Notes under the pieces: generated by a model
Database searches by the model: none
Seen by the model: the letters and a program-made list of their open reading frames with translations, nothing else
Told to the model about the DNA's origin: nothing
DNA from: a virus
IMG/VR virus record: IMGVR_UViG_3300037488_001035
Location: 1-23,891 of that record
DNA length: 23,891 bases
Reading direction: 5' to 3' (one strand)
In this document: positions 4,559 to 21,185 of the stretch, piece by piece
Numbering within the stretch: position 1 is the first letter of the stretch
How the letters are laid out: each line of letters starts with the position of its first letter
Translations under genes and position numbers: made by a program

Positions 4559-6100
4559 CTAAAGCTTATCAATAGTAGTTTGACCTTTTTTCAAGATATT
4601 ACTACCTTGACCTTTTTTGATATTTACCGTTATCCTAAACCGCCTCGTTGCAACTATTATTGCAGGGTCTGCAACTGTAATACTGAAACTATCGCCATCA
4701 AGATTTAATTGGATTAATAATTGAATAATATCGGTTAATGAAATATTGTCCTCTAATGTTAATGTGATTGACTTTTCTACATTATCAACCATCTCTATCG
4801 TATCAGTTCGTACAATCGTAATGTTTTGACGACTGATTAAGTCCGTTACCTCTATCGTATCAGCAATAGGCATGACATAAGTAATGAACTTAGTCAAAAT
4901 TTCTATTATTTCAACTGAATCATCTAAATTAATATCAATAATCTTTGATAACGAATCAATAATAGCGATTATGTCGTTTATACTTATGCTTATCTGCTTG
5001 GTTATAGTCCCATCGCTTAAACTAACTGAATCACTTATGATAAGATTGACTTGCTTGGTTAATAAGTCAACAATCTCAATAGAATCATTTACTGAAATAT
5101 CTATATCTTTGACTAACGAATCTATCATTGTGACCGAATCTGATTTTACCAACTCCACCGATTGACGACTTATCAAATCTGTAATCTCTATCGTGTCAAT
5201 AATAGTCTGGAAACGAGTAATGAAATAAGAAAGGCTGTCACCAACCTCGAAAGTATCTTGTTTTTCAATATCTATCGCAAGGCGAATCATCTCTGCTAAC
5301 GTTATGCTATCAGATTGTTGGATATTCGATTGTTTATTCAATGACTCAGTAATCGCTATCGTATCATATATGGTAGCCTCGAACAACGTCCCCGTATTGC
5401 GAAAATAATTACGTGGTGGCTTAAAATCACCATATCTATCAACAAATAACTCATTAACCTCCGCCGCACTCAACGCCCTGTTGTATATGCGGACATCGTC
5501 TATGAGTCCAGTGAAATACGTATAATTGCCACCTATTTTTGTGTTGTTTCCTTGATAAATAGAAGTTGAATTTGAAAATGGGCTTTTATCAGATACTCCA
5601 TTCAAATACATGTTTACTGTTCCGCTTACTCTTGTAGCAACAACATAATACCAAGTATCTATAATAAGCTCTGTTTTAGCTATATATGTCGAAATACTTA
5701 TATCAATTTCAAGTTTGCTTGTGTTGGATATTCTAAAAAGAAACCTTCCTGTTTGTAAAGCAGAATATTGCTGAACTATTACTCTTTGACCAGAATTAGT
5801 CATTTTAATCCAAGCTGAAATTGTAAAATCAGCAGTTGGAATAATTTTTGCACCCGCATCCACATAATCATTCACCCCATCAAAACTCAACCCCTGCGAA
5901 CCAGCCCATCCGCTAGTAGCAGTCGGCGGATTAGCCATGTCGGTTAACGTGCCATGATTGCGATTGCCTGAGAGGTCGTAAGCCATGCCACCGCCACCCT
6001 CTTGGAATGGTAGCCATAACTTCAAGTATTGCGGATCATTACGCCAACTTGGTATTATTGGTGTGCCTAATGGTGGTTTTGACGTCCATTTGTTTGCCAT
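4559..6100 (-). CDS. LamG-domain virion protein with tandem beta repeats (fibre-like)
   Basis: A protein of 513 residues starting at ATG 6100 behind CGGAG. Residues about 25-222 form a LamG/concanavalin-A-like jelly roll: LKLWLPFQEGGG, DLSGNRNHGTLT, LSFDGVNDYVD, FTISAWIKM, WYYVVATR and IDDVRIYNRALSAAEVNELF are all hallmarks. Residues about 244-470 are tandem degenerate repeats of 18-19 residues, of the form '[SND]DSIxIxDxLxKxIxIxI', about twelve copies. A short basic tail (about 485-513) follows. LamG domains in phage virions bind glycans or other surfaces. The repeats could form a stiff beta shaft. The gene lies in the head and neck module, not with tail tip genes, so a capsid or neck fibre is possible. 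Confidence 0.65.
   Translation of the reverse strand: MANKWTSKPPLGTPIIPSWRNDPQYLKLWLPFQEGGGGMAYDLSGNRNHGTLTDMANPPTATSGWAGSQGLSFDGVNDYVDAGAKIIPTADFTISAWIKMTNSGQRVIVQQYSALQTGRFLFRISNTSKLEIDISISTYIAKTELIIDTWYYVVATRVSGTVNMYLNGVSDKSPFSNSTSIYQGNNTKIGGNYTYFTGLIDDVRIYNRALSAAEVNELFVDRYGDFKPPRNYFRNTGTLFEATIYDTIAITESLNKQSNIQQSDSITLAEMIRLAIDIEKQDTFEVGDSLSYFITRFQTIIDTIEITDLISRQSVELVKSDSVTMIDSLVKDIDISVNDSIEIVDLLTKQVNLIISDSVSLSDGTITKQISISINDIIAIIDSLSKIIDINLDDSVEIIEILTKFITYVMPIADTIEVTDLISRQNITIVRTDTIEMVDNVEKSITLTLEDNISLTDIIQLLIQLNLDGDSFSITVADPAIIVATRRFRITVNIKKGQGSNILKKGQTTIDKL
4691..5371 (-). repeat. About twelve degenerate 54-57 bp coding repeats
   Basis: This stretch encodes units such as SDSVTMIDSLVKDIDISV, NDSIEIVDLLTKQVNLII and DDSVEIIEILTKFITYVM, each beginning with an acidic D-S/T-[IV] turn and continuing with alternating hydrophobic residues. 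Unit length is mostly 18, sometimes 19-20. Copies are diverged in DNA as well as protein, although DLISRQ occurs twice, hinting at more recent duplication between units. Confidence 0.7.
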
Positions 6101-8133: not shown

Positions 8134-11100
8134 TTACTTCTCACAAACCGCCAACATCTGCGTTCCGAATACCTCTATCCTGTCAACCTTGAAATATTGT
8201 GACAATAACGTTCTAAAACTATCGGTATCAAAGAATCTCTTATGACTCCTGACAGCATTCTCACCAATCGGAACGCTTATCAATGCCAAACCTGACGGTT
8301 TCAATACTCTTTTAATTTCACTTAACACTTTATTGGTATCAACGACATGCTCTAAGACTTCACCAAGTATCACAGTATCATAAGTATCATCAAAGTATTT
8401 GAGTTCCTCCGCCCATCCTTGCGTAAAGTAAGCCTTCTTCTGTGCCTTCTCACTTGCTTTCTTGAGATTCTCATTCGCTCTGTCAATATGCTCTTGCAAC
8501 ATATCTATACCGATAACATTCAATCCCTTTTCAGCGATTAGGATAGTTGTTAAACCATCAGAACAACCTATATCTAGCGCGTTACGTGCAGAAAGCTCAA
8601 CTATCCTATCTATACGTGCCTTGATGTTCTCACGAGTTGGCTCATCCCATTCTACTAGGTTATGATAGACTTGGTATGATAGATCGCCCTTGAATCGTTC
8701 CTCTGCAAGCTGATCGTCTCTGGTAACAACCTCTTGAATTTTCTTGATACAGATACAAGCAAGGTGACTATCGAAATTACTTAATTCAGGTTTTATCTTA
8801 GTTCCCATGGTCCAATATTTACCAGTGAAGCATTTGTAAAATTCTGCTTGTATTAATTCACCGCCATTATTTTTACACCATTTCATTATCGAATCATCAT
8901 TAAATACATGACAAGGATAAGGATAATTCTGACCATAACCGGCGTCTGGTAGTTTGTAAACGTTTTCGATATAATCTATCTCATTATAAGGGAACGTCAA
9001 TATCAAATGCCCGCCCATATTCAACAACTTCATCATCTTTGAGATTGCCAAGTCTGGATCACGCATATGTTCTAATGCCGATACGCAGGTGAATACATCC
9101 GTATTCCCAACTATCGCTTTAGGATCGTGAATATCCACCTGCTGTATAAGCCAATGACGATTCAATACTCCTTCTGTCCAGTAATCCTTGAAATTGTCAA
9201 TCGCATGGACGATAAACCCCGAATGACGCATTAATGCTGGTAATGCGGAGGTGCCTGTACCCACGTCTATAATCTCGTTTGGCTCAATCTCATTCAGCAT
9301 TTTGAATATAAAGCTATACTCTACTGGTCTTGTATTCATATCAGCTTTTGACGATATACTCTGCTCGTATTCGTGCCTATTAATCTCATATAGAAACTGT
9401 TTACCTATGTCAACAGGATTAACCGGCATTAAGTTTCCAGTACCACGAATCTTGTTATAGAATTCGATTATCTTTGGTGCTTGGCTTTCCATAGTAAATG
9501 GTGGTATATTTGATACGTCAATATTTTTCAGTGTTTCGATATTTTCGATAATGTCGCCTGGGGTATCATAAATAATACCACAATTCAAGCGTTCAAGTTC
9601 TGCTTTCAGCGCCTTCGTATTGCAAGAGATAACAGGTAAGCCTGCCGCTAGATACTCATAGAACTTGTTACAGATTGCAATATCAAGAAATGCCCTATTT
9701 TTTTCGTTAATGGTAAAGGCTACGATACCAGCATCATATTGAGTCATTTCTTTGATTATCTCAGTTGGCAGTATCGGCTCGTAATAATGGAGATAAGGAC
9801 TGCTTTTTGCCCATTCTACATACTCAGGATTATATGTCGTTGGGTATATATGGACATGGATATGTGCTTCTGCAAGGGCAGAGAATAACGTATGATAATC
9901 CCTATGTGCCGAACCAACGCCACCTTCGTAAACGATATGATATTCACCATCCAGACTTGATAGTTTAGTTTTAAACTCATTCGCTTTTGGTATATCATCT
10001 TCTGAAACGTAATTTGAGATAACCATACTTTTATCTAAATCAATATCATACCTCGCCTTCGCATAAGTCATCATTTCATCAGAGACGTAAATCCTGCCAT
10101 TAGCTCCTGTGTTAGCAATTAGCTCATATAAATCCGTTGTCTGTGTGTCCTTCTCTAAGCCTCGTAGTGCTATCGGATCATGACAATCATGTATAACCAC
10201 CCCATGCGTAAGCAATGCAACTGTGAGTATGTCAGGCTCGTTATGGCTATGGATAATGTCGTATTGTGAAGCGAACTTCTGGAACTGTCCAATATCACCG
10301 ATCTGATAGACGTGATCATAGATTTCCTCGTCTTTGAGATGATAGAAATCAGAAGGCTTGCCATTGAGATATGCTAAATCAACAGTATGCCCGGCGGAAC
10401 GTAACGCCCTTGACATTTTGATATTCCTGATACAAGTAAATGGTTGCACCATCAGAATTTTGAGTTTCTCTGGTACTCCAATCTCTGGTGTATCAATAGC
10501 GCCTGTCATTACTTGATTCGTTATCATCAAGTTCTTATCATACATCTGGACATGACCACCAATTTCGATTGCCTTCTCATAGCATTTCTTGGCTTCTTTA
10601 TAATTCTCTTTATGTGAATAAGCCGTCCCGATATTGTTCCATGACTGATCTATGTTCTGAATAGTGTCCATAGTTGACTTTGAGAATATCTTGCCTTCAT
10701 TATACAGTGTAGCAAGCTCTATATGCTTTCTAAAATGCTCTATGGCATTATCAAGCTGATTGCAAGCAAGATAAGCACCTGCGATGAACTGATGGGCGTC
10801 AAGACACTTTGGCGACTTCTCTAATAATCTTTTACCTATCTCTATAACTTCATTCTCTTTACCATGACATGATTTTCCGAACATCAGGTCAATCATTAAT
10901 CCAGTCCATGCACATTCTGTATCTGAATTAAACTCAAACTTTGATAGTTTGTCTTCACATACCTCTACAAGCTCATCAACACGTTTTTGACAGCGATAAA
11001 TCCTTGCAAGGTTCATCCACGCATACCAATACTCAGGTTGCGATTCTAGTTGACGGAGTAATAAGGTTTCGGTACGTTTCCATTTAATAGCCATCTCCGC

Positions 11101-12327
11101 TTCTGTGAGATTATACCCGGAATGATACATCCGCAGATTAGTAATGACTGTCATGCCTTCCCATATCGGCTGATTATGGATAATATCTTTGTAGCCCGCT
11201 ATCTTTCGTCTAAAGAGTCTTGGTGAGTTCACCATTGACTTGTTGTTGGGTAAATCACTTAATACTTGGAACTGTATGCCATCATGTTCGTCAACATTAC
11301 AGATATGTCGCATTTTGCGTATATCTTCTTTTTCAAGATATTCGTCACTATCAATGATAAGCACCCAATCATCAGGTGAAACAGTCGAAAGTTCAATACA
11401 AGTATTCCGTGCCTCTGAGAAATCCCATGTCTCTTGTGTATAGACTTTCTGATGATAACTTGCCTTTGGATAATTCTTGAAGATTAGAGTATCTATGCCC
11501 TCTCTGGTATCAGTCTGCAATACCACGATCTCGTCAACTGCATCCTTTATACTGTCAAGGCATTTGATAAAGCTATCCTCATACTTATCATTCTCATTGA
11601 ATACGTTGCCAACGATAATACATGCGCTAATCTTTCTCAATCTTCCACCTGTGCCGATAAAGTCAAGGTTTTCGTCCCACCAAATAGGGTGAAACAAGAA
11701 ATGGTAAACCCTGCCATCTTCCATTGTCTCAATATGCTTTATAATGTCAACATCCGTCCATGCAGTATTCTGCTTATCATACTTGACCATCTTCCGTATA
11801 TGCCCGCCATTATCTGCAACGTAACCATCATTTTGACACTGAAAGTCAGGCGATAACAAAGGCTTGACTATGGCTGTTATCTTAGGATTCTGGCATATCT
11901 CAAGGTTTCCTGAATGTGGTACAATCGTTTTGAAGTCTACCTCTGAATATTCCTTCATATTACGGATAACCTCGTCAGCATCATTCGTGCAAGCATGATA
12001 ACCAATCTCATGATCACTACTCACCAGATAAAGCAAAGGATTTTCTTTGTAATATTTCTTTGCCATAACGTAACTGCTAGATACAATACCATATTCGCTT
12101 TCTAACGCTATCATCTTCTGGATGTTAGGCAAACACAAATCAGGCTTGCCTTCAAATCCACCTAGCCCAGTCGTTGGGTCAAGATCATGACGAATGACTA
12201 CAAAAGGTATATCCTGATACTCTATGCCATTTATTACTGAATCATTCCCGCAGGTTAATGCTTCATTTACAGTTCTCGAAATAGCCCCACGTTTTTTTAT
12301 CGCTTCTAGTATGTCTTTGTAATTCAA
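8134..12327 (-). CDS. Multidomain glycan enzyme: deacetylase-like, GT2, TPR, GT4-like, two methyltransferases
   Basis: One open frame of 1397 residues starting at TTG 12327 behind AAAGGAG. Domains in order: about 40-220 polysaccharide deacetylase-like (RHDLD 46-50, HEIGYH 106-111, PHSGN 137-141, FHPIWW 212-217); about 233-420 GT2 glycosyltransferase with DSD at 326-328; about 430-600 TPR-like helices (NNIGTAYSHKENYKEAKKCY); about 622-960 GT4-like glycosyltransferase (ILMVQPF, EGGVGSAHRDYHTL, KFYEYLAAGLPVI); about 1005-1200 class I methyltransferase (IIDVGTGTS, VSALEHM); about 1240-1397 a second methyltransferase (ALDIGCSDG 1250-1258, LGEVLEHV, LKPSG). Together these suggest synthesis and capping of a glycan, on the virion or on the host envelope. 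The gene lies between a FemAB-like transferase and another methyltransferase-like gene. I see no membrane segment. Fusion of this many activities in a phage gene is unusual. Confidence 0.8.
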   Translation of the reverse strand: MNYKDILEAIKKRGAISRTVNEALTCGNDSVINGIEYQDIPFVVIRHDLDPTTGLGGFEGKPDLCLPNIQKMIALESEYGIVSSSYVMAKKYYKENPLLYLVSSDHEIGYHACTNDADEVIRNMKEYSEVDFKTIVPHSGNLEICQNPKITAIVKPLLSPDFQCQNDGYVADNGGHIRKMVKYDKQNTAWTDVDIIKHIETMEDGRVYHFLFHPIWWDENLDFIGTGGRLRKISACIIVGNVFNENDKYEDSFIKCLDSIKDAVDEIVVLQTDTREGIDTLIFKNYPKASYHQKVYTQETWDFSEARNTCIELSTVSPDDWVLIIDSDEYLEKEDIRKMRHICNVDEHDGIQFQVLSDLPNNKSMVNSPRLFRRKIAGYKDIIHNQPIWEGMTVITNLRMYHSGYNLTEAEMAIKWKRTETLLLRQLESQPEYWYAWMNLARIYRCQKRVDELVEVCEDKLSKFEFNSDTECAWTGLMIDLMFGKSCHGKENEVIEIGKRLLEKSPKCLDAHQFIAGAYLACNQLDNAIEHFRKHIELATLYNEGKIFSKSTMDTIQNIDQSWNNIGTAYSHKENYKEAKKCYEKAIEIGGHVQMYDKNLMITNQVMTGAIDTPEIGVPEKLKILMVQPFTCIRNIKMSRALRSAGHTVDLAYLNGKPSDFYHLKDEEIYDHVYQIGDIGQFQKFASQYDIIHSHNEPDILTVALLTHGVVIHDCHDPIALRGLEKDTQTTDLYELIANTGANGRIYVSDEMMTYAKARYDIDLDKSMVISNYVSEDDIPKANEFKTKLSSLDGEYHIVYEGGVGSAHRDYHTLFSALAEAHIHVHIYPTTYNPEYVEWAKSSPYLHYYEPILPTEIIKEMTQYDAGIVAFTINEKNRAFLDIAICNKFYEYLAAGLPVISCNTKALKAELERLNCGIIYDTPGDIIENIETLKNIDVSNIPPFTMESQAPKIIEFYNKIRGTGNLMPVNPVDIGKQFLYEINRHEYEQSISSKADMNTRPVEYSFIFKMLNEIEPNEIIDVGTGTSALPALMRHSGFIVHAIDNFKDYWTEGVLNRHWLIQQVDIHDPKAIVGNTDVFTCVSALEHMRDPDLAISKMMKLLNMGGHLILTFPYNEIDYIENVYKLPDAGYGQNYPYPCHVFNDDSIMKWCKNNGGELIQAEFYKCFTGKYWTMGTKIKPELSNFDSHLACICIKKIQEVVTRDDQLAEERFKGDLSYQVYHNLVEWDEPTRENIKARIDRIVELSARNALDIGCSDGLTTILIAEKGLNVIGIDMLQEHIDRANENLKKASEKAQKKAYFTQGWAEELKYFDDTYDTVILGEVLEHVVDTNKVLSEIKRVLKPSGLALISVPIGENAVRSHKRFFDTDSFRTLLSQYFKVDRIEVFGTQMLAVCEK

Positions 12328-16466: not shown

Positions 16467-16489
16467 TCGTGAATCATCACGATTTTTTT
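16467..16489 (+). terminator. Hairpin followed by T7, readable as a plus-strand terminator
   Basis: On the plus strand TCGTGA-ATCA-TCACGA (467-482) is a perfect 6-bp stem with a 4-base loop, followed by seven T. That is a small intrinsic terminator facing right, towards the RNA gene. On the minus strand the same palindrome lies 14 bases before the scaffold start and could be an mRNA hairpin or an operator. No plus-strand gene is nearby, so its purpose as a terminator would be to stop antisense transcription. Confidence 0.45.
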
Positions 16490-16494
16490 GACAT

Positions 16495-16540
16495 AAAAAA
16501 AACTCGATACGGATACTATAAAGAGTACTCATATCGAGTT
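16495..16540 (-). terminator. Intrinsic terminator of the tRNA-like RNA gene
   Basis: The minus-strand RNA forms a stem of AACTCGATA with TATCGAGTT (532-540 with 501-509), extended by an imperfect inner stem around GAGTACT/AGTATCC, followed by a run of eight U. This is a strong rho-independent terminator. It ends the transcript begun at 16774-16801, so scaffold and capsid genes must be transcribed by read-through or by another promoter. Confidence 0.8.
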
Positions 16541-16578
16541 TATTAATGCACATAACGTGCTTTTGAATATTCAGTTTT

Positions 16579-16767
16579 TGGTGGAGCTAACTGGAATCGA
16601 ACCAGTATTATGCACCCATGCTACCCCAGAAGGGTGGAATCTCACGTTTGGTGTTGAGGGGAGCAAAGAACCAACGCAAGACTCCGTGCGTGGTAGTTTT
16701 TGCTTGACTGCCAACAAGGGAATTTCAAGGCATATTCTCAACCTTTTTTGGAGAAAAAAATATCTTC
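16579..16767 (-). ncRNA. Stand-alone RNA with tRNA-like T-arm, acceptor strand and encoded CCA end
   Basis: The 3' end reads as a perfect tRNA 3' domain: T stem ACTGG/CCAGT (602-606, 590-594), T loop TTCGATT (595-601), acceptor strand TAGCTCC (583-589), discriminator A and CCA (579-581). No matching tRNA 5' half exists upstream: there is no D-arm, no seven-base anticodon loop with U33, and no 5' strand GGAGCTA. Instead, about 130 bases with other helices precede it: GTTGAG/CTCAAC (737-742, 653-658), GCTCCCC/GGGGTAGC (658-664, 620-627) and GTG/CAC. GGGGTAGC can pair instead, partly by wobble, with the acceptor strand. A consensus promoter and a strong terminator flank it. It is not a tmRNA as far as I can see. 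The 5' end is inferred from the promoter, and 3' processing at CCA is assumed. Confidence 0.65.
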
Positions 16768-16773
16768 AATACT

Positions 16774-16801
16774 ATTATACTACTTTATTTTCTGTTGTCA
16801 A
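16774..16801 (-). promoter_or_regulatory. Consensus sigma70 promoter of the tRNA-like RNA
   Basis: On the minus strand the -35 box is TTGACA (796-801) and the -10 box is TATAAT (774-779), both perfect matches, with a 16-base spacer. It lies at the very end of the nuclease gene, whose stop is at 16809. Transcription should begin near 16767. Confidence 0.85.
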
Positions 16802-16808
16802 TGTGTTT

Positions 16809-17387
16809 TTAAAATAAGTAGAATTGACCTGTTTTTTTGTCTGATGGCTGATCGGGTTGTTGACTTTCTATATTATTTTTATCCAATTCGTTCTGCATTG
16901 ACATTCTAATTTCATTCAACAATATATTGATTGGAATAGCAATATTGGAAGTTTTCCATGTGCTGTTATATGCAAACTTTCTGCCGTATTCCTTTAACCA
17001 GCAATGGTAGTTTTTAATCCAAACCTTTTGTAGCAATAAAAAAGGCAATAAATACAATAATTTAGCAGGCAATACAATATAGGCAATATAGTCAGTATAT
17101 TTCTCTTTACCTAGCCAACCAACAACTTTACGATCATAATCAGAGTATTCCTCTAACAATATATCTCCATACCATTTTCGTCTAATTTTCTCATCAACAA
17201 GAATGCGTTTTCCGCTATCAGTAATAAATATCTTGTCTATACCTTGCTTTTGTAGTTTTAGATCAGTAACTTTCTGTATATCCGATATATGCGGAAATAA
17301 CCGTTTATATACTAAATCAATAAATTGCTCGTTACTGGTGTCTAAAGAAAACTCTAAATCATCTTGAAAGTCATTTTTGATTCCCAT
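16809..17387 (-). CDS. PD-(D/E)XK-like nuclease, partner of the adenine methyltransferase
   Basis: A protein of 192 residues, ATG at 17387, overlapping the end of the methyltransferase gene by 17 bases. Residues 49-67 (GIDKIF, then KRILVDEKIR) fit the PD-(D/E)XK pattern, with Asp51 and an Asp65-Glu66-Lys67 triad on the next strand, followed by basic residues and a Trp/Tyr-rich part. A hydrophobic stretch near 105-120 (LPAKLLYLLPFLLLQ) is too short and interrupted to be a sure membrane segment. Coupling with a DNA methyltransferase suggests a restriction partner or a nuclease guided by methylation. Size is small for a type II enzyme but acceptable. The family call rests on the short motif only. 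Confidence 0.55.
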   Translation of the reverse strand: MGIKNDFQDDLEFSLDTSNEQFIDLVYKRLFPHISDIQKVTDLKLQKQGIDKIFITDSGKRILVDEKIRRKWYGDILLEEYSDYDRKVVGWLGKEKYTDYIAYIVLPAKLLYLLPFLLLQKVWIKNYHCWLKEYGRKFAYNSTWKTSNIAIPINILLNEIRMSMQNELDKNNIESQQPDQPSDKKTGQFYLF

Positions 17388-18456
17388 AGCTAAACCATCC
17401 TAATCGTTCATTTCTTGAAAACAGTTCTATATATTTTTTGTTTGGAAACATTGATTCAATCATACTATAATAATATTCTGGTTTCTTACTATGTTGTCCT
17501 CTTTTTTCATGAAATACCGATGAAAAACGATTTTCTACATCAGGGCACTTAGGATTACCTTTAACGCCTAGTAGCAATATTTCGTGCTGTTGTCGCCACC
17601 AGTACCCAAGACCGATTATTTCTTTATCCCATACTGAACAGGTACGGTATGTAAAACCCCACGCATTTAATACCAGCAGGGCTTCCTCTAGTTTTGGTGA
17701 GGTAGCCCATAATAATAGCACGCAATCTTTATCAGCAGGTATATCTAATGATTTAATTTCACCGAGATCCATGGTTGGATATTGGTTTTCTATTTCCCTG
17801 CTTGGTGATTCTGCAAACTCATATCTCCAGGGGGGATCGGCATAGATAACATCGAATAAACCATCAGGTATTGTTGGTTGAAAAGTTTGATCTTTAATCT
17901 CTTGTTGCTTTTCTTCACGTTGAATATCTTTATATGCCTTGTTGATCGTCAATTCACCATCACGTATTTTCTGGATTATCTCTGGTGAAGATTCTTTATC
18001 TATCTTCTCTATCTTGTCTAATGTCCTACCAGACATGCCTGCTTCTTCTGCTAACTGCTCTCTTGTATTAACTTTCTGTTCTGGTAATATTGCCAAAACA
18101 GATTCAGGCTTTCTTATCTGATTCTCTTTAGCTTTTAATGCAATTATATCTTTTTTCCTTAAAGATAATATGCCACTATCGTAAAGAGATAGATTCCGTC
18201 TGCCTCTTTGGTTATCAATTATCCATATTTCAGCATCGGCTCTGGAATCAAATTCTATCTCTCTGGTATCAAACTCAATCCCATGCTTTTGGCATAGATC
18301 ATACCTGTTGTGCCCATCAACGATAGTATCATTCCACACTTTCAGCGCATCTAAACACCCATGCGATAACAGGCTTTGCTCTAATGAATTATATTCTTCT
18401 GTCGTTAGTTTTGGTATCAAGTTTTGAAATTCTGTATCAATGGTAAGTTCGTTCAC
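17371..18456 (-). CDS. ParB-like / MT-A70 adenine methyltransferase fusion
   Basis: I start this at GTG 18456, since GGAGGT (464-469) stands seven bases upstream. An ATG at 18531 would lie inside the structured leader and has no ribosome site. The 361 residues hold a ParB/Srx-like N-terminal domain (about 1-100, with DGHNRY at 47-52), a helix-turn-helix-like segment near 133-155 (REQLAEEAGMSGRTLDKIEK), and an MT-A70 methyltransferase (about 198-361) with FDVIYADPPWRYEF (DPPW 207-210), LLLWATSP and EHEILL-type and ELFSR segments. It should transfer a methyl group from SAM to adenine N6 in DNA. Phages carry such fusions for self-protection. It has its own promoter and leader, and its end overlaps the nuclease gene. 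Confidence 0.85.
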   Translation of the reverse strand: MNELTIDTEFQNLIPKLTTEEYNSLEQSLLSHGCLDALKVWNDTIVDGHNRYDLCQKHGIEFDTREIEFDSRADAEIWIIDNQRGRRNLSLYDSGILSLRKKDIIALKAKENQIRKPESVLAILPEQKVNTREQLAEEAGMSGRTLDKIEKIDKESSPEIIQKIRDGELTINKAYKDIQREEKQQEIKDQTFQPTIPDGLFDVIYADPPWRYEFAESPSREIENQYPTMDLGEIKSLDIPADKDCVLLLWATSPKLEEALLVLNAWGFTYRTCSVWDKEIIGLGYWWRQQHEILLLGVKGNPKCPDVENRFSSVFHEKRGQHSKKPEYYYSMIESMFPNKKYIELFSRNERLGWFSYGNQK

Positions 18457-18476
18457 GATATGTACCTCCGTAGTAA

Positions 18477-18544
18477 TTCCGATGTAGTAGTTGCCAGCAG
18501 AACACTCGGAATGTGTTTTTTCATGTTGCAATCACTAGCTGGCA
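18477..18544 (-). ncRNA. Structured 5' leader RNA, copy B (pseudoknotted, unclassified)
   Basis: Minus-strand RNA that should begin at the first base of P1. P1 is TGCCAGC (538-544) with GCTGGCA (492-498). Inside come TA, a short GTG/CAT hairpin, GAAAA, then P2 AACAC/GTGTT (513-517, 501-505) with loop ATTCCGA. TTCCGA of that loop (506-511) pairs with TCGGAA (477-482) downstream, making a 6-bp pseudoknot. CT separates P2 from P1, as in copy A. The methyltransferase ribosome binding site GGAGGT follows seven bases on. Conserved parts versus copy A: P1, TA...GAAAA and CT. Differing but still paired: the inner hairpin, P2 and the pseudoknot. Confidence 0.7.
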
Positions 18545-18550
18545 TAGATA

Positions 18551-18579
18551 ATTATAGCATAAAAGTCAAAGATAGTCAA
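18551..18579 (-). promoter_or_regulatory. Sigma70-type promoter for the methyltransferase-nuclease pair
   Basis: On the minus strand the -35 box is TTGACT (574-579) and the -10 box is TATAAT (551-556) with a 17-base spacer. The predicted start is near 18544, the first base of leader B. It lies in the gap after the GHKL-HNH gene, so the pair can be expressed separately from that gene and from the late operon. Confidence 0.85.
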
Positions 18580-18593
18580 TGTTTCCACATTCC

Positions 18594-21185
18594 TCACAAT
18601 CTTGCAATTTCTAATTGTTGATGGAATAGCCCATGACAGGCTTTACAAAGTACGATTACATCACTATCTAGCTCTTCTCCTAGTCGGCTATAATCATTAT
18701 GATGCACATTCAAATTGTCTTTACTTTTACATAGAGAACAAAGATGATTTGATTGTTCTATTGCTTTTATTCGTATCCGTTTCCAATGTGGAGATTGAAG
18801 ATACTGATCGTAAAATGTTCCTTCTTTTCGTAATATGGATTTCCTAACCTGTATAGCCGTAATTGAACGACCTAATTTATTGGCTATTTCCTCTTCGGGT
18901 TTATGCCTTAATGTCATTACTATTAAAGTATCTTCATCGCCACGAGTCCATTTATCATCCCAGGGTTCATTATAAAAAGGCATCCATGAACACTCCGCCG
19001 ATGTATGCTGTCTGATAAACTTATCTTCATCCTCTATATCTGATTGACCATTCTCATAGAAACGTAGCGCCCCAAAGGCACTATGAACCAGAAGCTCTCT
19101 ATAATTTTTATCCATTCTATCTAATACAGGATCGTCATTAGCATATAATCTTTTAGCATATAAATGATCCCTATTATCCATATTGACATATACAAGAATT
19201 TGTCCTTGTGATTTATCAATATAAGCGCCACTACACTTATCAAAATTATGCTTTGCAAAGTCATTTTTATGAACTGGAACAACTTTATAATCAGGAATGC
19301 CTGTTTTTCTAGGAGGTCTTATTTCATCCCCATTGCCTGATATAGTTAGTTTATATGGGATAACTTTTACAAAAAAGTTCCCTGTAAACCTATTCCATCT
19401 TTGCGTAATAATTGAATATTTATACTCAATTAAGTCATCAATTTTTATCCCTTTTGGTAAGTCTAATACGATTACGGCTATTCCGCAATCATGTATATTG
19501 CCAGTTATAAACTTCATATTTTGAGGAAGAATCGAATCGGCAGTGCATACTGTATAAAATTCACCAGGGTCGTCCTCTCTATCAAAAAAATCCGATATGG
19601 CGTCTGTTTTTAGTCTAATCTGGAATTTCCGCCCTATCTCTACCAATTTTGGATTCTCTTTAGCATATTCTGTTTCTAGTTCAAATATCTCTGGATATAC
19701 TTGTTGCGTTATTGGTTCTTTATTACTTATCCCATTATCATCTAATACATATTCTATTTTTTTTCCATTAGCCAATTCACGGAAAGCTGGAACTTTAAGA
19801 AGACATTTGTCTAAATCATATTTTTCGTCTTGGTCAACAATATGACTTGATTTATCATCACGTAATTGTTCTGCTACCTTTATCAGACCTACATGATTAG
19901 TGAGTTCATACTCTAATTGTTCACGAATGGTTTTGGTATATTCGTTATCATAAAATCGGTTTCTATCCTGCATAAATACCTTCTCCTTAATTTGTGCAGG
20001 AAGACCCGTACAATCTACAAATACCTTAATATTATTCCTCAAAATACTAAGTCCAATATCTGTAAAAACCTTTGTCTCGAGGAAATGCTTTTTCTCTGTA
20101 TGGCGTGTCTGACCTGTATCAGTAAAGAAAACAATATCATCACCAGATGGGTACTTATAGCCCAATCCATTTTTGATTACAAATAACTGGTAAGTTACTT
20201 TATAATCGTTACACTTAATAAATCCAGTATAACTACAATACAAATCCTCTTTTTTATAATTAAGATCATTTTGTAATCCATATAAAACAAGTCCATAAGA
20301 ATTAGCTTTTCTATCCTCAACATAAATAGGAAGTCCAAAATTTGGAACTAATCTGTTTATATCAGATAAAATACTACTGTTTTTAACTTGATGATCTTCT
20401 TTGTTTGAAAAGCTTCGTATTCCTACGATTAGATATGCACTGCTCCGCACTTGATAACTAAACAACTTTATAATTGTATTATATCCGGTCTCAAATTCTG
20501 CATTGGTTTCTAATTCTTGTGGGATTAAATATTCATAAGAAGACAATTTCTCATTACCTTTAGGCTCGACACGCCTTGTGATAGTAAATCCCCAGGGATT
20601 AAGAGAATGGCATAACTCAGGGGCTATTCTTGATACTATCATTTTTAGACAATATTCACCAGCAAACTTTATTGAATTAGACCCGCCTGTGTTGTAAGTG
20701 CCTGTAACATAGGGTATTGACTTTTTATTACTATCGGTTACTGACAAAAACGTATTTTCAAATCTATTACAAGGCATTCCTATGCCTTGATCTAAAATCC
20801 ACATATCAGGTCTTTCTTTTGCCCCGCTTGATCTTAATACGGTTTTTTTGGCTAATATTAATCTATCTTTCGGTTCCATAAAACGGACATTCCCATTTTC
20901 TATTCCATAGAATTCTTTCATTGCTTCGTTAAAATCTTTAGGTATAACACCTAAAATTTTGGAATCTTTCATCGAATTTGCATCACGCCCATTAATAAGT
21001 AACTCTACTAAAGCAGACTCTCCATTTGGACAATCTCTCCCTACGTGAGAACCTGAATTAGCAACCCCGCCATAAGGTTGCCACTTTTCACTATCATTAT
21101 ATAATCCACAATCCTCAAGTAACTTTTTGGCTTCAATTTCACCATTCGCATTAAATAAATTCTGCACCAATTCTGTATAATTCAT
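18594..21185 (-). CDS. GHKL ATPase fused to Myb-like segment and HNH nuclease
   Basis: An 863-residue protein starting at ATG 21185 behind AAAGGAGATC. The N-terminal part (about 40-200) has GHKL ATPase motifs: N box ELLINGRDAN (Glu61, Asn65, Asp68), G1 DQGIG (132-136) and a G2-like TGTYNTGGSNS (161-171). The middle (about 200-700) has no recognised domain. Residues about 746-786 (WTRGDEDTL ... LGRSITAIQVRKS) look like a Myb/SANT-type DNA-binding helix set. The C-terminus (about 800-863) is an HNH nuclease: CSLC (816-819), NVHHNDY (826-832) and LCKACHGLFH. An ATP-driven clamp linked to a nuclease fits DNA restriction or defence functions, as in MutL- and MORC-like proteins. It sits upstream of the methyltransferase-nuclease pair but is not overlapping it. 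Confidence 0.8.
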   Translation of the reverse strand: MNYTELVQNLFNANGEIEAKKLLEDCGLYNDSEKWQPYGGVANSGSHVGRDCPNGESALVELLINGRDANSMKDSKILGVIPKDFNEAMKEFYGIENGNVRFMEPKDRLILAKKTVLRSSGAKERPDMWILDQGIGMPCNRFENTFLSVTDSNKKSIPYVTGTYNTGGSNSIKFAGEYCLKMIVSRIAPELCHSLNPWGFTITRRVEPKGNEKLSSYEYLIPQELETNAEFETGYNTIIKLFSYQVRSSAYLIVGIRSFSNKEDHQVKNSSILSDINRLVPNFGLPIYVEDRKANSYGLVLYGLQNDLNYKKEDLYCSYTGFIKCNDYKVTYQLFVIKNGLGYKYPSGDDIVFFTDTGQTRHTEKKHFLETKVFTDIGLSILRNNIKVFVDCTGLPAQIKEKVFMQDRNRFYDNEYTKTIREQLEYELTNHVGLIKVAEQLRDDKSSHIVDQDEKYDLDKCLLKVPAFRELANGKKIEYVLDDNGISNKEPITQQVYPEIFELETEYAKENPKLVEIGRKFQIRLKTDAISDFFDREDDPGEFYTVCTADSILPQNMKFITGNIHDCGIAVIVLDLPKGIKIDDLIEYKYSIITQRWNRFTGNFFVKVIPYKLTISGNGDEIRPPRKTGIPDYKVVPVHKNDFAKHNFDKCSGAYIDKSQGQILVYVNMDNRDHLYAKRLYANDDPVLDRMDKNYRELLVHSAFGALRFYENGQSDIEDEDKFIRQHTSAECSWMPFYNEPWDDKWTRGDEDTLIVMTLRHKPEEEIANKLGRSITAIQVRKSILRKEGTFYDQYLQSPHWKRIRIKAIEQSNHLCSLCKSKDNLNVHHNDYSRLGEELDSDVIVLCKACHGLFHQQLEIARL

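Follow-up and report, generated by a model that had tools for sequence, protein, structure and literature searches.

The nearest documented analogue of the RNA gene described here is tRNA-Other of Bacillus cereus, a pseudo-tRNA in which a larger regulatory RNA, located beside an island, contains a tRNA-like element (PMC3399842). Both share a tRNA-derived element within a larger RNA (in our case only presumed to be regulatory), a Firmicutes setting and a position beside inserted DNA and outside translation. However, the pseudo-tRNA annotation of tRNA-Other includes an anticodon, whereas our RNA has a T-arm, an acceptor 3' strand and a CCA only and, unlike tRNA-Other, it belongs to a phage and is tightly framed by a promoter and a terminator of its own. 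Among phages, the single named example of a tmRNA made of its tRNA-like domain only (TLD-only) is that of mycobacteriophage DS6A, and a molecule of this kind has been reported to inhibit the host tmRNA (PMC4131195, PMC11915505). It shares with our RNA its coding by a phage, an end formed by a T-arm plus CUCCACCA and the lack of an anticodon arm. The last point of comparison is the attP cores located in the 3' ends of tRNA or tmRNA genes, which, like our RNA, represent a tRNA 3' end without the 5' half but, unlike it, have an adjacent integrase and no dedicated promoter-terminator frame.

Transcription unit and structure of the RNA

The window (the whole 23,891-nt stretch analyzed, from an IMG/VR virus record) codes for an SPP1-like portal, a minor head protein, a scaffold-like protein, an SU10-type major capsid protein (MCP) and tail proteins. 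The RNA gene (Table 1) starts from a perfect sigma-70 promoter, unique in the window (shuffling predicts 0.08), and is followed by an intrinsic terminator whose hairpin folds at -18.9 kcal/mol, with the T-run next to it. The initial annotation had described a consensus promoter, an RNA of about 190 bases ending in CCA and a strong terminator, together forming a complete transcription unit that carries a tRNA 3' domain without a tRNA 5' half, and our analysis supports this description, on the minus strand. An 86-amino-acid ORF on the plus strand covers the RNA gene and runs antisense through the tRNA tail, and we judged it to be spurious. A two-codon frame, ATG CCT TGA, preceded by AAAAAAGG (16733-16725, minus strand), is located close to the RNA 5' end and could be a minigene or a product of chance. 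A terminator-like hairpin of the plus strand (16467-16482) also separates the RNA gene from the scaffold gene, while all the recognizable genes are on the minus strand.

Table 1 Features of the RNA gene and its surroundings, and positions of the TLD-only tmRNAs in other phage loci
Feature	Position	Strand	Remarks
Cargo block	16809..21185	-	863-aa HNH protein, ParB-like/MT-A70 methyltransferase, 192-aa protein; upstream of the RNA
Sigma-70 promoter	16801..16774	-	TTGACA-16-TATAAT, 12/12 consensus match
Predicted RNA	~16767 to 16579	-	about 188 nt; predicted from promoter spacing and CCA position
Hairpin S1	16636..16685	-	13 bp + 3 bp past a bulge; GGAGTCTTGCGTT (16685-16673) paired with AACGTGAGATTCC (16648-16636); apical loop UCUUUGCUCCCCUCAAC
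GCTCCCC in S1 apical loop	16658..16664	-
Small hairpin ACCC-UUCU-GGGGU	16623..16635	-	directly 3' of S1; probability 0.49
GGGGTAGC	16620..16627	-	best, yet poor, candidate for acceptor 5' strand
T-stem 5' strand	16606-16602	-	ACTGG
T-loop	16601-16595	-	TTCGATT
T-stem 3' strand	16594-16590	-	CCAGT
Acceptor 3' strand	16589-16583	-	TAGCTCC
Discriminator	16582	-	A
CCA	16581-16579	-
Intrinsic terminator	16541..16500	-	12-bp helix; T-run to about 16493
TLD-only tmRNA	L074:6081-6146	-
TLD-only tmRNA	L116:5423-5488	-
TLD-only tmRNA	L137:4804-4869	+
TLD-only tmRNA	L145:298-363	-
TLD-only tmRNA	L033:7487-7553	+
TLD-only tmRNA	L089:4080-4146	+
TLD-only tmRNA	L071:157-224	-
TLD-only tmRNA	L197:5833-5899	-
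TLD-only tmRNA	L036:3031-3110	+
TLD-only tmRNA	L055:46-127	-
TLD-only tmRNA	L063:3678-3758	-
TLD-only tmRNA	L050:4193-4265	+
TLD-only tmRNA	L039:8793-8854	-

The 3' end of the RNA contains both the T-arm and the CCA of a tRNA. The window has a single 5-bp T-arm followed by NCCA at tRNA spacing, 150 dinucleotide shuffles gave none, and the arm has a mean pair probability of 0.95 in the predicted ensemble. Beyond the T-arm and the acceptor strand there is no tRNA fold, as already noted in the initial annotation. ARAGORN calls no tRNA or tmRNA in the window, and no Rfam family (RF00005 tRNA, RF00023 tmRNA and others) matches the RNA at the gathering threshold; relaxing the thresholds adds just two tRNA-like matches, tmRNA_permuted (14 bits) and beta_tmRNA (8 bits), on the T-arm side. 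A convincing tRNA or tmRNA model that included this 3' end would have spoken against the claim of an isolated 3' domain, and neither these programs nor our own model R1 (described below) provided one. The T-arm and acceptor had also been called canonical, which holds for the T-arm and the acceptor 3' strand but not for the helix, as the best 5' partner is mismatched: with TAGCTCC, GGGGTAG forms three Watson-Crick and three G-U pairs and leaves an A-A mismatch, and the mean pair probability of the GGGG with the acceptor strand is 0.001. No GGRGYTR able to complete a 7-bp acceptor stem is found near the RNA on the minus strand, so we rejected an interrupted tRNA with its 5' half upstream. Since there is no acceptor 5' strand, neither charging of the RNA nor a use in translation is to be expected. 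Of the functions suggested previously, a mimic engaging RNase P, CCA enzymes, EF-Tu or a synthetase, several lose ground, as without an acceptor helix the RNA is unlikely to be charged by a synthetase, bound by EF-Tu or cleaved by RNase P in the standard way, and our results lend little weight to the proposal as a whole.

The dominant structure of the body of the RNA is the hairpin S1 (mean pair probability in the predicted ensemble of 0.89), which was absent from the initial annotation. By shuffling, it has a z-score of -4.0 and its best helix a P of about 0.003, while the stability of the whole 192-nt RNA is not unusual (z of -1.38). Instead of S1, two alternative states had been proposed, with GGGGTAGC pairing either with GCTCCCC or with the acceptor strand. 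Such a switch is not supported thermodynamically, as both pairings are near 0 in the predicted ensemble (mean pair probabilities of 0.0 and 0.001, respectively). A pseudoknot between GGGGTAGC and GCTCCCC would also be sterically poor, because an 8-nt loop must span 13 to 16 bp. We also considered that the C-rich loop could be aimed at the ribosome-binding sites of the window genes and discarded it, its affinity being no better than that of shuffled loops (P of 0.25).

An apparently inserted block and the origin of the tRNA tail

The RNA gene forms the downstream edge of a block of roughly 5 kb located between the minor-head and scaffold genes, in which the HNH domain is C-terminal in the 863-amino-acid protein. 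In Sporosarcina phage Lietuvens, a distant relative with a similar head module, the portal, minor capsid, scaffold and MCP genes are contiguous, so the cargo block and the RNA look inserted. Among the traits that define a moron, an own promoter and terminator (both predicted here) and an insertion between genes that are adjacent in a relative (here a distant one) are found in this gene. A known defense system was considered and rejected, only matches to type II methyltransferases carrying weight. The link between the RNA and this nuclease/methyltransferase block that had been suggested finds support only in its position at the block edge, and the bacterial relatives of the 192-amino-acid protein have no such RNA nearby, and we discarded the RNA as a partner of this protein. 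Elsewhere in the window, between the tail and head genes, a 1397-amino-acid protein (8134-12327, minus strand) combines glycosyltransferase, TPR and methyltransferase domains.

The last 28 nt of the RNA, including the ACCA, are identical in 27 of 28 positions to the tRNA-Val(GAC) of a Peptococcaceae genome (Firmicutes), and the identity to tRNA genes of several other genomes is 89 to 93%. Among 398 genomes of one phylum, the similarity to host tRNAs begins exactly at the T-stem and covers these 28 nt only, the best matches being mainly tRNA-Val genes and the others short and weak. The exact 26-nt tail has no match in a genome collection of about 85,000 species; when the T-loop is relaxed, it is found in three genomes, including Veillonellaceae and Peptococcaceae, and always as the end of a tRNA-Val(GAC). 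The Firmicutes tRNA-Val(GAC) genes (L228, L229, L230, and L241) have almost the same 3' 28 nt, but the window RNA does not have their acceptor 5' strand, D-arm and anticodon arm.

The comparison with related phages proposed in the initial annotation brought no sign of conservation: no homologue of the RNA was found by exact patterns in IMG/VR viral contigs, none that was convincing by blastn among INPHARED phages, and nothing in the 398 genomes of one phylum beyond the 28-nt tRNA tail and short matches at chance level. Searches through protein neighbors and prophages gave no direct relatives either. As a result, neither conservation nor covariation supports the RNA, and its function is one that we infer.

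Phage tmRNAs reduced to the tRNA-like domain

The patterns used to search for kin of the RNA (a T-arm and then CUCCACCA, with or without an upstream GGGG) gave many phage loci without an ARAGORN call. An acceptor 5' strand with perfect complementarity (all three variable positions Watson-Crick) was present in 29 of 76 loci, against 6.5 expected with swapped acceptor strands. From them emerged a coherent RNA family, mostly of 62 to 82 nt, with a G3-U70 acceptor, a UUCGA D-loop, a short hairpin that stands for the whole mRNA-like domain and a T-arm plus CUCCACCA at the end. In an alignment of 15 sequences, 96.6% of the cells pair, covariation is 0.568 versus 0.142 in the shuffled control, and double changes are seen in each of the six hairpin pairs. 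The Rfam tmRNA model recognizes 10 of the 13 family loci scanned above the gathering threshold, so we consider these RNAs tmRNA tRNA-like domains. All of them are missed by ARAGORN, and some lie within or beside tRNA arrays. In L116, a group I intron match of 82 bits (5277-5565, minus strand) overlaps and contains the TLD-only tmRNA.

Model R1, built from this family, gives 45 to 83 bits to clear members, 31 to 35 to ordinary tRNA-Val, 19 to an attP and 26.4 to the best match in the window, the segment 16627-16579. With this score, the window RNA is not a member of the family. In the R1 alignment it lacks the UUCGA(C) D-loop and the H2 hairpin, and it also lacks the full acceptor pairing, as the G-U position that corresponds to the tmRNA G3-U70 is present but in a weak, mismatched helix; RF00023 was not reached. 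We therefore rejected the RNA as a TLD-only tmRNA, in contrast to the found family, which has the full G3-U70 acceptor, the UUCGA D-loop and a covarying hairpin.

Several other tRNA-like phage RNAs appeared in the same searches. Two very short standalone RNA genes of 52 to 61 nt, L097:927-987(-) and L024:246-297(+), lack an anticodon arm and have a perfect 7-bp acceptor with G3-U70; directly 5' of the former there is a perfect TTGACA-17-TATAAT, and the latter has a TATAAT 8 nt upstream. Eight loci (L086, L108, L153, L154, L158, L185, L193, and L217) code for tRNA-Ala(UGC)-like RNAs with an odd D-arm (such as CATGTTCCAAGGGGGCGA) that ARAGORN does not call, and nine (L101, L163, L168, L173, L202, L203, L205, L223, and L090) for genes that resemble tRNA-Tyr and have no clear D-stem; in these, the TTCCCC after the acceptor could pair with the GGGG of the variable region. 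A tRNA-like RNA of high-GC phages, L007:4235-4334, contains three long hairpins, and its T-arm ends in CCGCTCCACCA; ARAGORN does not call it, and there are near-identical copies in L009, L015, L020, L021, L023, L025, and L027. Lastly, L014:4935-5070(-) has a layout like that of the window RNA, with a 9-bp hairpin (GGGCTCGTG/CACGAGTCC), 7 nt and a GGGGCGT mini-RNA that has a T-arm and a CCA, and is directly upstream of a gene resembling the small terminase subunit.

Candidate roles of the RNA gene

The reading we prefer, tentatively and at a little less than an even chance, is that of an autonomous cargo RNA gene, that is, a moron inserted between late genes with its own promoter and terminator, which would code for a regulatory RNA whose 3' end derives from a tRNA. 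The consensus promoter would let the host RNA polymerase transcribe it independently of the late program, with the terminator insulating the scaffold and capsid genes. In the presumed transcript, the stable 13-bp hairpin with its C-rich loop would precede a T-arm, an acceptor 3' strand and a CCA, a 3' module taken over from a tRNA of Firmicutes type, e.g., a tRNA-Val. The RNA would be neither charged nor used in translation; most likely, the tail would serve as a handle for 3' maturation or stability, while the hairpin body would carry the putative regulatory function. The ordinary stability of the whole fold, the unremarkable affinity of the loop for ribosome-binding sites and the absence of homologues count against this interpretation, and so does the fact that a tRNA 3' fragment without the 5' half also fits an attP site or a tRNA relic.

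In this last case, which we regard as possible but clearly less probable, the tail would be the attP core of a tRNA-Val integrase or what is left of a phage tRNA after recombination had replaced its 5' half, with the promoter and terminator belonging to a lost or neighboring unit. The restriction of the host tRNA match to 28 nt would agree with such an origin, and pattern searches found several attP-like sites of similar form beside integrases (L005, L177, and H68-H71), as well as a truncated tRNA-Val 3' half in a Firmicutes genome (L244). However, there is no integrase among the window proteins scanned (the record is incomplete), the site is inside the head module, and the tail is framed tightly by a perfect promoter and a strong terminator. 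The exact 26-nt sequence is also absent from about 85,000 genomes, the best match being 27/28 in one genome, and the T-stem is fully paired, while several attP-like sites have broken 5' T-stem strands (e.g., L087 and L148).

Two further readings are less likely. It is improbable, in our view, that the last 49 nt or so (16627-16579) act as a very short tRNA-like RNA with a long leader, an RNA that would receive alanine and act as a competitor of tmRNA or tRNA. Its parts would be GGGGTAG:TAGCTCC with a G3-U70, a short D-loop-like linker (GG 3 bases past the acceptor strand) and the T-arm; the GGGG:CUCC with G3-U70 and the N3-GG spacing fit the phage mini RNAs found, this very segment is the best R1 match in the window, and L024 and L097 are examples of short RNA genes with their own promoters. 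Yet the acceptor helix would contain the A-A mismatch and two further G-U pairs, with a probability of 0.001, the 26 bits are below ordinary tRNA-Val and far below true members, and neither the UUCGA D-loop nor the H2 hairpin is present. Quite improbable as well is a 5' leader of the scaffold-capsid operon, in which read-through of the terminator or processing at the tRNA-like element would control capsid expression. The only perfect promoter of the window is indeed about 320 bp upstream of the scaffold and MCP genes and on the same strand, but it is followed by the strong terminator and T-run, the predicted structures contain no antiterminator fold, and no function of a tRNA 3' end in such a leader is known to us, which also counts against it. 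We are just as doubtful about a phage decoy or regulator of a new kind, whose T-arm elbow and CCA would engage tRNA-handling factors without an acceptor helix, the adjacent UGGG mini-hairpin (GCA-UGGG-UGC) possibly docking on the elbow and the 13-bp hairpin providing a second function.

TLD-only tmRNAs are seen in many uncultivated phages, beyond the one named example of DS6A, and ARAGORN misses them, so phages may commonly interfere with ribosome rescue. As for the cargo RNA gene, if it is expressed, it would mean that phages join tRNA tails to unrelated RNAs and have noncoding RNAs among their autonomous cargo genes.
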